NCBI GenBank assembly: GCA_944326385.1
Contig: CALVDT010000041.1
Coordinates: 1-50,369 of the forward strand
DNA length: 50,369 nucleotides
Direction: 5' to 3'
DNA from: an uncultured Bacteroidales bacterium
GTDB taxonomy: Bacteria > Bacteroidota > Bacteroidia > Bacteroidales > UBA932
The stretch's first letter is position 1, and each line of letters opens with the position of its first letter. Shown here in pieces: positions 3,477 to 46,028 of the stretch. The position numbers were made by a program, and so were the translations under genes. The notes below the pieces were generated by a model that was not told the origin of the DNA, did no database searches, and worked only from the letters and a program-made list of their open reading frames with translations.

Positions 3477-5152
3477 CGGAACACCTTGAAATACCAGCCG
3501 GAAACCGGACCCAGAATATTCCCGGGCGTATATTCCCGGACATCCTTTTCCTTAAGGAAATGCGACCATTCCACCCGCTCACGGGGATCGGCAGCCCCCG
3601 GACCGTAATTGCCGTACTCGGCATAGAACGAGGTCTTCTCCGCATCTTTCTTGTTCCAGTTATGCCATCCTTCAGGCAGGATATGATCCCCGAGACTGCA
3701 TCCGATGAATACGGTTTTCGCATATGGTCTCCACGGACGGCCGAGATACACTTCATCGATACCTTCGGCATGGATCAGCCTGCAGTTCCTGAATACGTAG
3801 CCCCATTCCTGGTCTTCCGGTGTGGAGGCTGCGGTGACGTAGCTGTCCTTCTTGCTGAGGATGACGCAGTCCTCGAACCATGCGGTGGAAAACCCGAAAA
3901 TGAAATCGGTGGTACCTTCGATATGGCAGTTCCTGAAAAACTGTCTCTGTCCAGGTCCGAATGTGTATATCGTATCCTGATTCGCCACAAACCTGCAGTT
4001 GATGAAAGCCACCCTGTCTCCGTTTACCGTGATGGCGCATGCCTGGGCTATTTCCTTCCCGCTTCCTGCCGCATTCTCGAATGTAAGGTTCTCTGCAAGG
4101 AAATCATCGGCATGGAGGAAGACAGTGGAAGTAGCCGATGTACCCATTTCATATCCCGTAGAGCCTTTCTTCAGGGCGTAGTCGTCCCAGCGGATGATTG
4201 TCGTCAGCGGATCTTCGCCAGTGAGATGCAGTTTCTGCTTGTTCGCCGGTATGGTGACTTTCTCTTCATAGACTCCGGCCCTTATGCGGATGGTGGTCTC
4301 GTCCTGCTTGCAGTAGTCAGGAGCTGCATTTACCGCCTCCTGCACCGTGAAAAAGTCACCGCTGCCGTCCTTTGCCACCACGAAGTCATATTCTTCCAGA
4401 TGATCTGCAAGTTCAGGAATCACATCCACTATGGCAGGAAGCAGAAGTTCGACCAGCTTCCTTGCTCCGGCCACATTCGTATGGGTATTGTCCACAAGAC
4501 CGTCAGGATGGCGGGGACATGTACCGGGTTCTATCCACATGTAGTATTTTCTGGAAGCCTCATCCCCGAGGGATTCCAGCCATTCCTGTGTTATGGCGTT
4601 CGCATCGATCACCGGGATGCCGTACTCTCCGGCAACCTGGAAGACAGCGGCAGGATAATCGCCGTGACAATCCTTTTTCAGACGGCCTTCACCGTCGAAC
4701 CATCTTCTGGACACGGGAGTGAAGAGCACCGGTCTCGCCCCCGTCTTGAGAGCATGGTCTATGAATGTACGGAGATTCTCCTGATACGCTCCGAAAGCAG
4801 GGGCATATCTGGCAGGATCATCAGCCTTTGAATCATTGTGGCCGAACTGGATGAAGAGATAGTCGCCTGGATTCAGATCTTTCTTGACCTGATCCCACAG
4901 GCCTCTGTCAATGAAGCTTTTCGTGCTTCTCCCGTTCCGGGCGTAATTGTACACGCATACGGAAGAATCCAGATGAGAAGGAAGCCTCTGCCCCCATCCC
5001 CGTTCCGGATTCTGTCCTGAGAGATCCTTGTCGGCCATGGTAGAATCCCCCATCAGCCTGAAGACAATCTTTTGTCCACTCTCCTGCCCTGAACCATTGA
5101 AGCTCAGGGTCAGAAGCATGGACGATATTAACGCAATGCAACGGTTCATCAT
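3473..5152 (-). CDS. Two-domain pectin esterase: SGNH/CE12 acetylesterase fused to CE8 pectin methylesterase
   Basis: This 559-residue secreted protein has a signal peptide (about residues 1-22). The first domain is an SGNH hydrolase like rhamnogalacturonan acetylesterases: GDS at 35-37, FGHND around 103-107, and the D221..H224 pair in DNTHTN. From about residue 256 follows a right-handed beta-helix pectinesterase: GSGDF near 263, NQDT with Asp393, GTTDFIFG with Asp416, and LGRPW with Arg472, which are the expected CE8 catalytic residues. It should remove acetyl and methyl esters from pectin so that the GH28 enzyme encoded just upstream can cut the backbone. Both neighbouring junctions in the operon are ATGA overlaps. 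Which pectin region the esterase domain acts on (homogalacturonan or rhamnogalacturonan) cannot be told from sequence. Confidence 0.93.
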   Translation of the reverse strand: MMNRCIALISSMLLTLSFNGSGQESGQKIVFRLMGDSTMADKDLSGQNPERGWGQRLPSHLDSSVCVYNYARNGRSTKSFIDRGLWDQVKKDLNPGDYLFIQFGHNDSKADDPARYAPAFGAYQENLRTFIDHALKTGARPVLFTPVSRRWFDGEGRLKKDCHGDYPAAVFQVAGEYGIPVIDANAITQEWLESLGDEASRKYYMWIEPGTCPRHPDGLVDNTHTNVAGARKLVELLLPAIVDVIPELADHLEEYDFVVAKDGSGDFFTVQEAVNAAPDYCKQDETTIRIRAGVYEEKVTIPANKQKLHLTGEDPLTTIIRWDDYALKKGSTGYEMGTSATSTVFLHADDFLAENLTFENAAGSGKEIAQACAITVNGDRVAFINCRFVANQDTIYTFGPGQRQFFRNCHIEGTTDFIFGFSTAWFEDCVILSKKDSYVTAASTPEDQEWGYVFRNCRLIHAEGIDEVYLGRPWRPYAKTVFIGCSLGDHILPEGWHNWNKKDAEKTSFYAEYGNYGPGAADPRERVEWSHFLKEKDVREYTPGNILGPVSGWYFKVFR

Positions 5153-42292: not shown

Positions 42293-43177
42293 TCACTCCA
42301 TACCGCCGACTTTCTCCGGACTGCATTTTCTGAATCTTTCAAGAACAGCATCCGAATATGTCTTCGAGACAGGAAGCGGCGGTATTGAGTCATTTTCAAG
42401 ATCGAGCCAATAGGCGTCCTTCTCCTTTCTGAGTACCCTGACCTTGTCGAGATTGACAATATACTTCCTGTGGCATCTGGCCAGCGGGCTGTCCCTGAAA
42501 CTCTCTTCGACGGTCTTCAGGCGGCATCTGAGTATGTATGTCTTCAGTCCGCCTCCTGAATCAAGATACCAGACCTTTATATAATTGTCATCGGATTCTA
42601 TATAATACATGTCCGCAGTCCTGACGGAAAGCTTCAGCGAACCTCCGCTGTCGAAAAGCGTGATCTTGTCCTCCTCCCTGGATGAAGGCACATCACCCGC
42701 AATCCCGCTGCTGCAGTTCATCAGGCTGATGGTCCTGTTCTTGTCCATTATAGTGAAGTACATGCCTGCCATGATGTACGGGATAATCAGAGATATGGAA
42801 CCATACATCATGGCCTTTCCGAAAACCATCGCCCATGACTGGTCTGCAGGATGTATGACATCCATAGTGACCACCGTATACAGGATACATATCAGCACGA
42901 CCTCAATGATGCACCACAGGATGTATCCGGCATAAGTCAGTTTGCAGACCTTGCCCGTCTGATACATCACCACGCGGCTTGTCACCAGAATCAGGATGGA
43001 GATGAAGGCGAAACCTGCCGTAATGAGAAATGTCGTGGAATTTCCCAGCCCGAACCACGCAGTGTCGGAAAAAGGTATGTAGAGATTCAGGAAAATGAGC
43101 GCGAACAGCACGGAAAACATCACCGTACCGATAAGACAATTCCTGTCAAGCAAGTATCGCGGCAGTACATTTTTCAT
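42293..43177 (-). CDS. Membrane-bound LytTR family regulator
   Basis: The 294-residue protein has four hydrophobic segments in its first half (about 15-35, 48-68, 82-105 and 118-140), then a linker and a LytTR DNA-binding domain (about 180-285) with YYIESDDNYIKVW, ARCHRKYIVNL and VRVLRKEKDAYWL. It has no receiver or kinase domain, so it belongs to the LytTR membrane subtype. LytTR proteins bind direct repeats spaced by two helical turns, and four such repeats lie in its own upstream region, which suggests autoregulation. It converges on the DUF4293 gene and is divergent from fabH. Confidence 0.9.
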   Translation of the reverse strand: MKNVLPRYLLDRNCLIGTVMFSVLFALIFLNLYIPFSDTAWFGLGNSTTFLITAGFAFISILILVTSRVVMYQTGKVCKLTYAGYILWCIIEVVLICILYTVVTMDVIHPADQSWAMVFGKAMMYGSISLIIPYIMAGMYFTIMDKNRTISLMNCSSGIAGDVPSSREEDKITLFDSGGSLKLSVRTADMYYIESDDNYIKVWYLDSGGGLKTYILRCRLKTVEESFRDSPLARCHRKYIVNLDKVRVLRKEKDAYWLDLENDSIPPLPVSKTYSDAVLERFRKCSPEKVGGME

Positions 43178-43197
43178 TCCATTCCTGTTTTACCCTG

Positions 43198-43205
43198 CAA
43201 ATATA
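43198..43205 (-). promoter_or_regulatory. -7 promoter box for the LytTR gene
   Basis: The minus strand reads TATATTTG (TAnnTTTG), 21 bases before the ATG. The first repeat of the 20-bp array is 9 bases upstream of it. Confidence 0.55.
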
Positions 43206-43214
43206 AGAATTTTA

Positions 43215-43280
43215 CCACAAATAGATAAAATACACCACATTTTCGAAATATAAGCCACAATTCCGGAAGAATTGCCACAA
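43215..43280 (-). promoter_or_regulatory. Four direct repeats at 20-bp period, candidate LytTR operator
   Basis: CCACAA, CCACAT, CCACAA and CCACAA on the plus strand (43215, 43235, 43255, 43275) lie exactly 20 bp apart. On the minus strand the repeat reads about AWWTGTGGY. The intervening bases differ, so the pattern is not a simple tandem duplication. One copy in the opposite orientation (TTGTGG) occurs at 43313-43318, close to fabH. The arrangement fits binding of LytTR dimers on one DNA face. Confidence 0.65.
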
Positions 43281-43312
43281 TTATTTCCTACTTCAGGAAA
43301 TTGAAAGTAATT

Positions 43313-43345
43313 TTGTGGACTTTTCAAGGAATTTTAGATAATTTG
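43313..43345 (+). promoter_or_regulatory. Possible fabH promoter
   Basis: TTGTGG (43313-43318), 20 bases, then TAATTTG (43339-43345), a near match to TAnnTTTG with one base less. The leader is very short. The -33 part coincides with the inverted copy of the array motif. Confidence 0.4.
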
Positions 43346-43350
43346 TTTTT

Positions 43351-44298
43351 ATGAAAATTGTTGGAACAGGAAGCGTTATTCCTAAGAAAATCGTCACGAA
43401 TGACATGCTTTCAGAATTCCTCGACACAAGCGATGCCTGGATATATCCGAGAACCGGGATCAAGCACCGCCACGTGATCTCTGACGAGAAACTCGAGGAC
43501 ATGGCCATAGAAGCTGCAAAAAAGGCTCTCGACAACGCCGGAATGAAAGCGGAAGACATGGATTTCATAATCTGCTCGAATGTTGTAAACGAATATGTGA
43601 CACCATCGCTCAGCTGTATAATCCAGGGCGGGATAGGTGCGACTTGTCCGTGCATCGACATAAACTGCGCATGTGCGGGATTCATATATGCGCTTGACCT
43701 GGCGGAAGCCTACAGCAAGGCCGGAAGAGTGAAGAACGTGCTCATAGTATGCGCGGAGGAGCCGACGAGGATGACGAGCTGGAAAGACAGGAACGTCTGC
43801 GTGCTCTTCGGAGACGGGGCCGGAGCGGCTGTCCTTACGGAAGGGAACAATATAAAAGGTACAAAGCTGTCCGCCGCCAGCGCGACTGACAAGCTCTACC
43901 AGATCCGCACCCTCGAACCTACGCCATACATCACCAAGGAAGAGGTGAACATCCCTATGCAGATGAGAGGCCAGGATGTGTTCAAGTTCGCAGTCAAGGC
44001 TTCAAGCGGAGACATAAAATATCTGCTCGACGAACTCCACCTGTCAGCCGATGACATAGACAAATACCTGCTTCATCAGGCAAACATAAGAATCATCAAT
44101 GCCATAAGGGACCAGATGGAACAGCCTGCAGAGAAATTCCCTCACAATGTGGAAAGCCACGGGAATTCATCCTCTGCGAGCTGCCCTATCCTTCTGGACG
44201 AATGCAACAGGAACGGAATCATCAAGAAGGGTGACCTTCTCGCGCTCAGCGCATTCGGGGCCGGCTTCATTTCAGGTGCGGCAATCCTTGAATGGTAA
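43351..44298 (+). CDS. fabH: 3-oxoacyl-ACP synthase III
   Basis: The 315-residue thiolase-fold protein has the FabH triad: Cys108 (CACAGF), His242 (LLHQAN) and Asn272 (SHGNSS), and ends in the usual FGAGFISGAAIL. FabH starts fatty acid synthesis by joining acetyl-CoA to malonyl-ACP. The gene is divergent from the LytTR regulator and heads a three-gene unit with fabF and fabZ. Related ketosynthases of specialised pathways cannot be excluded from sequence alone. Confidence 0.9.
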   Translation: MKIVGTGSVIPKKIVTNDMLSEFLDTSDAWIYPRTGIKHRHVISDEKLEDMAIEAAKKALDNAGMKAEDMDFIICSNVVNEYVTPSLSCIIQGGIGATCPCIDINCACAGFIYALDLAEAYSKAGRVKNVLIVCAEEPTRMTSWKDRNVCVLFGDGAGAAVLTEGNNIKGTKLSAASATDKLYQIRTLEPTPYITKEEVNIPMQMRGQDVFKFAVKASSGDIKYLLDELHLSADDIDKYLLHQANIRIINAIRDQMEQPAEKFPHNVESHGNSSSASCPILLDECNRNGIIKKGDLLALSAFGAGFISGAAILEW

Positions 44299-44333: not shown

Positions 44334-45587
44334 ATGGATAAAAGAGTAGTAGTGACAGGTATGGGAGTCATCTCCCCTGTCGGAAACAATGTTGCAGACT
44401 TCTGGAAGAACCTTCTGGACGGTGTCTGCGGAATCGACTTCATCAAGGCATTCCCTACAGATGATCTTCCTGTGAAGATCGCCGGTGAAGTGAAAGACTT
44501 CAATCCTGCAGAGCATGGAATAGAACCTGCCTTTGCAAGGAAACAGGACAAGTTCACCGTATATGCGGTGGCTGCTGCAAACGAAGCCGTGAAGCAGTCC
44601 GGCCTCAGCTCAGCCGAAGGCGGGAACATCGACCCGTTCAGATTCGGAGTCTATGTAGGATCCGGTATCGGCGGCTTCACCACACAGTACAGAGAGACTG
44701 AAAAAATGATCAAGGACGGTGCAAAGTGGATATCCCCGCTTTTCATACCTACCATGATTTCGAACATCGCGGCAGGCAATGTGGCTATCAGGAACAATGC
44801 CTGCGGTCCGAGCCTTGACATCGTGACAGCCTGCGCCACATCCACACACGCCATAGGCGAAGCTTTCCGCGCCATCAAGCATGGCTATGCGGATGCGATA
44901 ATCGCCGGAGGAGCCGAAGCTGCCACAATCCCTCTCGGGATCGCCGGCTTCGCCAATGCAAAGGCTCTTTCTCGTGCAGAAGATCCGAAGTATGCCTCCC
45001 TGCCGTTCAATCTCAACCGAGGTGGTTTCGTGATGGCTGAAGGTGCCGGAATGATTGTCCTTGAAGAATATGAACATGCCAAGGCAAGAGGCGCCCGGAT
45101 ATTCGCCGAGGTCGTAGGCTATGGCAACACTAACGACGCTCATCATGTCACAGCTCCGAGACCGGACGGTGTGACACAGGCAAAGGCCATCGAAATGGCT
45201 CTGGCAGAGGCAGGATACGATGGAGAGAAAGACACCCTGTACATAAACGCACACGGTACAGGCACTCACCTGAACGACGCTTCGGAGACTGCGGCATTCA
45301 AGCTTGCCATGGGTGAAGAGAACGCCCGCAAGGCCCATATCAGCTCCACCAAGTCCATGACAGGACATATGCTCGGGGCAGCAGGCGCGGTCGAATCCAT
45401 TGCCAGCATTCTGGCATTGAAGAACGGCATCGTTCCGCCTACCATCAACCTCGACACTCCTGACCCTGAGTGCGACCTCAACTACACACCGAACAAGGCC
45501 GAGAAAGTGGATCTCACCCTTGCAATATCGGATTCCCTCGGCTTCGGCGGTCACAACGGCTGCGTAGCGTTCCGCAAGGCAGAATAA
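44334..45587 (+). CDS. fabF: 3-oxoacyl-ACP synthase II
   Basis: The 417-residue ketosynthase has all FabF catalytic residues: Cys167 (TACATS), His307 (NAHGTGT), Lys340 and His345 (KSMTGH). It elongates acyl-ACP with malonyl-ACP. It follows fabH after 35 bases and precedes fabZ by 30 bases. Unlike many bacterial fabF genes it is not preceded by acpP. The sequence is typical of fatty acid FabF, without features that would point to a polyketide chain-length partner. Confidence 0.93.
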   Translation: MDKRVVVTGMGVISPVGNNVADFWKNLLDGVCGIDFIKAFPTDDLPVKIAGEVKDFNPAEHGIEPAFARKQDKFTVYAVAAANEAVKQSGLSSAEGGNIDPFRFGVYVGSGIGGFTTQYRETEKMIKDGAKWISPLFIPTMISNIAAGNVAIRNNACGPSLDIVTACATSTHAIGEAFRAIKHGYADAIIAGGAEAATIPLGIAGFANAKALSRAEDPKYASLPFNLNRGGFVMAEGAGMIVLEEYEHAKARGARIFAEVVGYGNTNDAHHVTAPRPDGVTQAKAIEMALAEAGYDGEKDTLYINAHGTGTHLNDASETAAFKLAMGEENARKAHISSTKSMTGHMLGAAGAVESIASILALKNGIVPPTINLDTPDPECDLNYTPNKAEKVDLTLAISDSLGFGGHNGCVAFRKAE

Positions 45588-45617: not shown

Positions 45618-46028
45618 ATGAACAGAGAAGAACTCAAAGAATATCTGCCTCACAGGGAGCCGATGCTCCTGGTGGACGAGGTGGAGATAGATGAAGAAGG
45701 GATTGCCCATGCTAAATACAGGATTCGCGAAGACGAGTTCTTTTGCAGGGGGCATTTCCCCGGGAATCCCATCGTACCAGGCGTAATCCAGTGCGAGATC
45801 ATGGCACAGAGCTGTGTGCTTCTCGTTAAGGACGAGGTCAAAGGGAAGACTACCTTGTATACCGGGATCAACAATGTGAAATTCAAGAACATTGTCCGCC
45901 CGGGTGATCTCTGCGAGATTACAGCCAAGCTTACCGGAAGAAGAGGAAACATCTTCTTTACTGAGGCTACTCTCAAAGTGAACGGTAAACTTTGCTGCCG
46001 CGGCGACCTTTCCTTCGCCCTCGCATAG
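45618..46028 (+). CDS. fabZ: 3-hydroxyacyl-ACP dehydratase, stand-alone FabZ type
   Basis: A 136-residue hot-dog protein starting MNREELKEYLPHREPMLLVD as in FabZ. The catalytic His46 (GHFPGNPIVPG) and Glu60 (QCEIMAQS) are 14 residues apart as in E. coli FabZ. It dehydrates 3-hydroxyacyl-ACP. In Bacteroidota the housekeeping FabZ is commonly fused to LpxC, so this single-domain copy is probably an extra one belonging to the fabH-fabF cassette. A nested palindrome follows the stop. Confidence 0.9.
   Translation: MNREELKEYLPHREPMLLVDEVEIDEEGIAHAKYRIREDEFFCRGHFPGNPIVPGVIQCEIMAQSCVLLVKDEVKGKTTLYTGINNVKFKNIVRPGDLCEITAKLTGRRGNIFFTEATLKVNGKLCCRGDLSFALA

Follow-up and report, generated by a model that had tools for sequence, protein, structure and literature searches.

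Transcriptional control of fatty-acid genes is known from regulators of the FapR type, which are soluble, belong to a family other than LytTR and act through a palindromic operator. LytTR sites are described, in the available sections of the sources, as two repeats of 9–11 nt with spacers of 11–13 nt (PMC4847170, PMC2714321), and a printed example has the form ACCACTTAC-12-ACCACTTAC, reading toward the promoter (available sections of PMC6193735). Three-repeat LytTR operators are described for RcoM1 and the membrane-associated CoxC in the part of PMC11347149 at hand. Both extended arrays and LytTR proteins of the membrane thus have precedents, the former in these triplets and the latter in CoxC and in Bacteroides, as far as the available texts go. 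The Bacteroides –7 consensus is given as TAnnTTTG (excerpt of PMC7366714), and genes for DUF6051 proteins are reported to be found together with those for LytTR proteins and fatty-acid-CoA ligases (excerpt of PMC11878206).

The locus described here lies in a stretch of 50,369 nucleotides (the window) from an uncultured Bacteroidales bacterium, in the 173-bp intergenic spacer (43178–43350) that separates a LytTR gene on the minus strand from fabH on the plus strand. Its features are as follows.

42293..43177, minus strand: LytTR regulator of 294 aa, predicted to be membrane-anchored, with four long helices and a LytTR domain.
43198..43205, minus strand: putative –7 element of the LytTR gene, TATATTTG, 14 bp from box 4.
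43210..43222, minus strand: box 4, the LytTR-proximal one, ATTTGTGGTAAAA; overlaps the LytTR promoter between –33 and –7.
43230..43242, minus strand: box 3, AAATGTGGTGTAT, 20 bp from box 4.
43250..43262, minus strand: box 2, AATTGTGGCTTAT, 20 bp from box 3; of the four, the one that degenerates most among relatives.
43270..43282, minus strand: box 1, nearest fabH, AATTGTGGCAATT; its CCACA and the fabH –7 element are 33 bp apart.
43308..43315, plus strand: putative fabH –7 element, TAATTTTG; fits the Bacteroides –7 consensus and lies at the usual –7 place of relatives.
43351..44298, plus strand: fabH-like ketoacyl-ACP synthase III, the candidate divergent target gene.
44334..45587, plus strand: fabF-like ketoacyl-ACP synthase.
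45618..46028, plus strand: FabA/FabZ-like dehydratase, encoded by the third cassette gene.

CCACA starts at 43215, 43235, 43255 and 43275 on the plus strand, at a step of exactly 20 bp, as the first-pass annotation of this DNA had claimed; the same array reads as TGTGG on the sense strand of the LytTR gene, and the boxes lie between the LytTR and fabH promoters. A 5-mer occurring four times at one step (10–45 bp) was obtained in none of 20,000 shuffles of the letters of the 173-bp spacer, counting only 5-mers with no letter present more than three times, and such a series was found in 2 of 1004 tiles of the window, both covering the CCACA array. The pair pattern CCACA-N15-CCACA has five matches in the window's own genome (three of them in this array), and the reversed pattern, used as control, has five as well; a box pair is not rare, and the box series is. 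A regulon search of the own genome by this pair pattern was dropped, the count not exceeding the control. The spacers between boxes, formerly called unrelated, are not wholly so, the conserved unit being about 13 bp long, WTTGTGGYRAAAW. The boxes read (G/A)CCACA toward fabH. Their head-to-tail period of 20 bp agrees with that of LytTR operators (about 20–23 bp), and their number exceeds the single pair of such operators, with four boxes in the window and three to four in many relatives. An inverted copy at 43313, previously counted with the array, was discarded as a fifth operator box: it overlaps the likely fabH –7 element TAATTTTG, is not conserved as a box in relatives, and is read as promoter because TAATTTTG fits TAnnTTTG and sits where the fabH –7 element of most relatives is found.

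The product of the LytTR gene is a LytTR-domain regulator by sequence and fold. PF04397 is matched at residues 185–281 (51.2 bits; cut-off, 22.6) and is the sole Pfam match in the protein; the four-helix N-terminal part (helices at residues 12–33, 47–77, 82–108 and 115–158) has none. The AlphaFold2 model, built from a 29-row alignment (pLDDT 79), shows N-terminal helices and a beta domain, and the four helices look long and hydrophobic, as judged from this model only (pTM 0.49). The modelled LytTR domain matches 3d6w, ComE (4cbv) and AgrA (4g4k) in Foldseek (E < 1e-3), and hmmsearch also gives 3d6w. This gene is the only PF04397 match in its genome, which is 87% complete, and is followed downstream by a DUF4293 gene in convergent orientation.

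For comparison within the probable genus, Cryptobacteroides, 169 loci were collected, several of them sharing a genome; a fabH start was present in 133 and LytTR was divergent in 128, which gave 84 non-identical spacers and a non-redundant set of 57 at <75% mutual identity. The 57 spacers contain TGTGG 127 times on the LytTR strand (shuffle mean 17) and 4 times on the opposite strand. Pairs of TGTGG lie 20 bp apart in 32 cases (shuffle mean 0.02), 52 bp in 16, 40 bp in 12, 72 bp in 11 and 60 bp in 10. A four-box fit, which was forced and misplaced a box in some spacers, gave 20-31-20 in 13 spacers, 20-32-20 in 10 and 20-20-20 in 4, the remainder being near variants, three-box forms or misfits. 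The alignment of relatives that had been proposed as a check thus bears out the boxes, which recur in the 57 spacers with 20 bp as the commonest step, and departs from a uniform 20-bp period in the middle gap, often 31 or 32. From one relative to another this gap changes by roughly one helical turn and the outer pairs hold 20 bp, which suggests two units of two boxes.

The comparison also shows a constant geometry on one side of the array. The distance from box 1 to the fabH –7 element is 33 bp (CCAC-29-TAnnTTT) in 49/57 non-redundant and 75/84 non-identical spacers; box 4 lies 14–16 bp from the LytTR –7 element in 39/57, and the remainder have 26–90 bp or no such element. Because the first distance is constant and the second variable, fabH is the fixed partner of the array. 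TTTG stands at the fabH –33 position in just 7 of the 49 spacers with the 33-bp geometry.

A second site was found with the pattern GTGGYRA-N13-GTGGYRA, which has 33 matches in 61 genomes (reversed control, 5). Nine are in the LytTR/fabH spacer and 24 outside it: 12 between genes for an AMP-binding (acyl-CoA ligase-like) protein and a HAD hydrolase (the AMP/HAD spacer), 1 next to an AMP-binding gene in the vicinity of a LytTR paralog (L177) and 11 in or near other genes. The paralog at L177 (genome G012; 1996–2022 and 3766–4833) is a distant one (29% identity), its neighbouring AMP-binding gene has a 20-bp GTGGCGA pair, and this is possibly a second regulator–operator pair. Arrays in AMP/HAD spacers frequently consist of three boxes spaced 22+20 bp. 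Among 35 non-identical spacers, 18 have the closest box 43 bp from the –7 element of the AMP-binding gene; this is one turn beyond the fabH distance and leaves a TTG-type –33 element free. The AMP/HAD spacer of the window's own genome (L274) has no array.

Box pairs were scored with a matrix built from the fabH spacers, with a threshold of 6.88 (99% point of the scores from 300 shuffles, the highest being 10.1); all 57 fabH spacers exceed it, a result that is partly circular because the matrix was trained on them. AMP/HAD spacers exceed it in 35/56 LytTR-positive and 2/44 LytTR-negative genomes, and an array at either fabH or AMP/HAD is present in 53/56 and 2/44, respectively, 3/56 LytTR-positive genomes having none at these two places. 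The positive set comprises 56 of 61 places (omitting two of G039, the second of G030, G128 and G003), and the negative set 44 of 69 matches, from 80 of 105 LytTR-negative genomes; negative here means no match at 1e-35, so that distant paralogs are possible, and many of the genomes are incomplete. The two genomes with an array and no LytTR match (G004 and G099) are 72% and 80% complete. A Fisher test on these counts ignores relatedness; a tree-pair test on a quick tree of the HAD protein, which allows for it, gave 10 independent LytTR contrasts, about 7 of them for the association and 0 opposite (p ~0.016), and for AMP/HAD arrays alone a ratio of pairs of about 3 to 0, short of significance. 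The presence of LytTR is correlated with that of the array, and LytTR is a candidate for the causal role.

Genomes in which fabH and LytTR have come apart bear on which gene the array accompanies. Where fabH is unlinked from LytTR, a pair over the threshold is found at fabH in 6/9 genomes (G300, 24.1; G244, 22.4; G032, 20.9; G257, 19.3; G039, 18.8; G183, 17.8); the other three are G243, which retains both genes and has an array at neither, and G045 and G065, which have an array at AMP/HAD despite none at fabH. In G039 (L055, 1483–1790) the fabH is a remnant (60-aa ORF) with boxes still upstream, and LytTR is on another contig. Of 32 loci in which LytTR has no adjacent fabH, 3 carry a pair, none in the first batch of 20 and L108, L141 and L147 in the second (14 loci; L151 and L162, repeats of L009 and L017, are not counted in the 32, and L041 and L051 were unscorable). 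The expectation of the first-pass annotation that boxes persist where LytTR is kept therefore failed at the LytTR gene itself, 29/32 loci being pairless, yet 14 of 16 genomes checked among the first 20 pairless loci have an array elsewhere, at AMP/HAD or fabH.

In L141 and L147 (1300–2500) an oxidoreductase-like frame takes the place of fabH and only the two LytTR-proximal boxes are left; because this pair remains after fabH was replaced, boxes 3 and 4 may also serve LytTR itself. Conversely, where LytTR was not found (G366, G383, G092) or lacks helices (G151, 149 aa), a pair at fabH is present in 0/4, the fabH upstream region having been scored in 4 of 8 fabH-positive, LytTR-negative genomes. 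The fabH of G366 and G383 is 91–92% identical to that of the window, and its upstream neighbour is now DUF4293, which in the window lies beyond LytTR. Two LytTR orthologs are shortened, L201 of G151 (149 aa, no helices) and L051 of G045 (167 aa, about one helix); both genomes have no boxes at fabH, and G045 retains boxes at AMP/HAD (L237).

Outside the genus, 44 loci were considered, 16 from the same family but other genera and 28 drawn from the order (L340 repeats L317). GGHRA pairs at exactly 20 bp within 200 bp upstream of LytTR number 25 in these loci (shuffle, 0.4), and L348 has three boxes upstream of LytTR. FabH was present within the fetched flanks of 7/44, and the divergent partner was DUF6051 (PF19519) in 6/6 loci tested; DUF6051 was found in 0/101 genomes of Cryptobacteroides. 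The last chained box lies 53 bp from T[AT]nnTTTG of the divergent gene in 14/32 loci and 73 bp in 7/32, together 21/32, these distances being 33 bp plus one or two 20-bp periods; among the other offsets, 76 bp occurs in 3, apparently register-shifted, and 25 bp, the next commonest, in 5. In DUF6051, Ser213, Asp327 and His358 are invariant (11-row alignment), and the predicted structure model is similar to esterases, in agreement with the available text of PMC11878206. The simplest history would be a swap of partners beneath a conserved operator. In L334, from another family, five GTGACGAAAT boxes at 19–21 bp lie between LytTR and fabH/fabF, each of them with a changed core, GTGA in place of GTGG.

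Our preferred reading, with a probability of about 0.7, is that the boxes are the operator through which the predicted membrane-anchored LytTR protein regulates, and probably activates, the divergent lipid gene (fabHFZ in this case). We infer that the protein would bind the four boxes on one helix face, probably in the form of two dimers arranged head to tail (one on boxes 1+2, one on 3+4), with control of the divergent gene, here fabH-fabF-fabZ, as its main task. Activation is the likelier sign from geometry alone, since box 1 abuts a poor –33 element at a fixed distance from –7 and reads as do known LytTR activator repeats. In this genome LytTR would probably also limit its own expression through box 4, because that box covers its promoter, and the N-terminal helices may sense the state of the membrane or of its lipids. 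The earlier suggestion that the divergent fab cassette is controlled from the array gains support from the comparison, through the 33 bp to the fabH –7 element in 49/57 spacers and the pairs at 6/9 unlinked fabH genes; of the operator proposed for the adjacent LytTR gene, the phased, conserved, LytTR-tied series of boxes stands, and within the genus it would primarily be the operator of the divergent target, fabHFZ, and likewise at AMP-binding/HAD.

Chance, or a feature of DNA shape with no dedicated binding protein, might be considered for the 20-bp series in an A+T-rich spacer; hardly any weight is given to this, as box sequence is kept at 20, 32, 40, 52, 60 and 72 bp, 0/20,000 shuffles gave such a series and the array is associated with LytTR. 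Chance as the origin of the four-box series is rejected on the box sequence retained across relatives. That a different regulator, co-inherited with the LytTR gene, binds the array and LytTR is a passive neighbour is rather unlikely: array and LytTR gene can sit on separate contigs, and two LytTR-negative genomes still have an array, but G366 and G383, in which LytTR is missing between DUF4293 and fabH, have no fabH pair, the array outside the genus adjoins the LytTR gene though its neighbour is mostly not fabH, and the head-to-tail period of about 20 bp and the CCAC core are the LytTR binding pattern as given in the available sections of PMC6193735 and PMC4847170.

LytTR as the binding protein would also fit a repressor of both fabH and itself, with box 1 against the –33 region, box 4 over the LytTR promoter, and a parallel in CoxC, a membrane LytTR protein that represses through repeats overlapping –35 (excerpt of PMC11347149). 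This has a minor but appreciable chance; the scarcity of TTTG at the fabH –33 position (7/49) is as expected for an activated promoter, and the box nearest the AMP-binding promoter, at 43 bp from –7 (18/35), leaves the TTG-type –33 free. An array that is chiefly the autoregulatory operator of the LytTR gene, with secondary effects on fabH, would agree with its position directly upstream of LytTR outside the genus, with box 4 covering the LytTR promoter in the window and with the pair retained at 3/32 fabH-less LytTR loci. It is improbable, the geometry being fixed to the divergent gene and not to LytTR, the pair being lost at 29/32 fabH-less LytTR genes and present at 6/9 unlinked fabH genes.

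More tentatively, at somewhat below even odds, the system may be a Bacteroidales-wide, membrane-tethered LytTR lipid regulator, whose four-box, two-dimer operator pins the target promoter to the sensed membrane: a portable module with a fixed 33-bp promoter geometry that would serve DUF6051 (putative lipase/esterase) in many families and, in Cryptobacteroides, where no DUF6051 was found, fabHFZ, with a second array at an acyl-CoA ligase-like gene. If true, LytTR operators would be extended from pairs and triplets to a strictly phased four-box array, DUF6051 would gain a regulatory context, and the expression of fatty-acid genes could be tied to the membrane through a LytTR regulator; a predicted membrane LytTR protein with an operator at fabHFZ and an acyl-CoA ligase-like gene is a candidate for coupling membrane state to lipid genes in these gut bacteria. 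In a targeted, mostly title-level literature search, no precedent was found for a four-box array of fixed promoter geometry at lipid genes across Bacteroidales, and the search, in part narrow, gave no fatty-acid gene regulator of this kind in that order. The remark of the first-pass annotation that multi-copy arrays of this size are not routinely described is to be set beside the known LytTR triplets, and agrees with the lack of a four-box array at lipid genes in the literature searched.

Among described systems, the operators of PlnC/PlnD, YpdB and HdrR/BrsR resemble the present one in having head-to-tail repeats about two turns apart beside –35 (available sections of PMC6193735, PMC2714321, PMC4847170); they are single pairs, whereas here there are up to four boxes and a middle gap varying by about one turn. 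RcoM1 and CoxC share more than two evenly spaced LytTR repeats, and CoxC is membrane-associated (available part of PMC11347149); they have three repeats, TTCNNGCA or TTNNNGCN, at CO oxidation genes, and CoxC has an MHYT sensor, in contrast to four copies of the box WTTGTGGYRAAA, a four-helix part without Pfam match and lipid genes here. Membership in the RcoM/CoxC type was not upheld, given the four WTTGTGGYRAAA boxes and LytTR as the only Pfam match in the protein. For DUF6051, the gene cast described in the accessible part of PMC11878206 is similar to the present one, and no operator, regulation or fabH partner is described in that part. The LRS-like operons of B. thetaiotaomicron and B. ovatus likewise contain a LytTR protein with several membrane segments, and their repeats have a 22-bp period before a TATCTTTG promoter (available sections of PMC6193735); these form one pair, TCCGGTATTCA/ACCGGAAATCA, unlike the boxes here in sequence, and the operons, as described there, include an NfeD/DUF2154 membrane protein, which was not seen beside the LytTR gene of the window. 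Membership in LRS, an operon of a soluble regulator and a membrane inhibitor, was rejected, the regulator here having helices of its own and the downstream DUF4293 gene being convergent. For the other LRS trait, autoactivation through direct repeats ahead of the operon's own promoter, the parallel is doubtful: the boxes stand between two promoters, their geometry follows fabH, and a pair is retained at 3/32 fabH-less LytTR loci. With regulators of the FapR type the present system has in common the fatty-acid genes on which it would act, and it differs in that the regulator is a predicted membrane-anchored LytTR protein.
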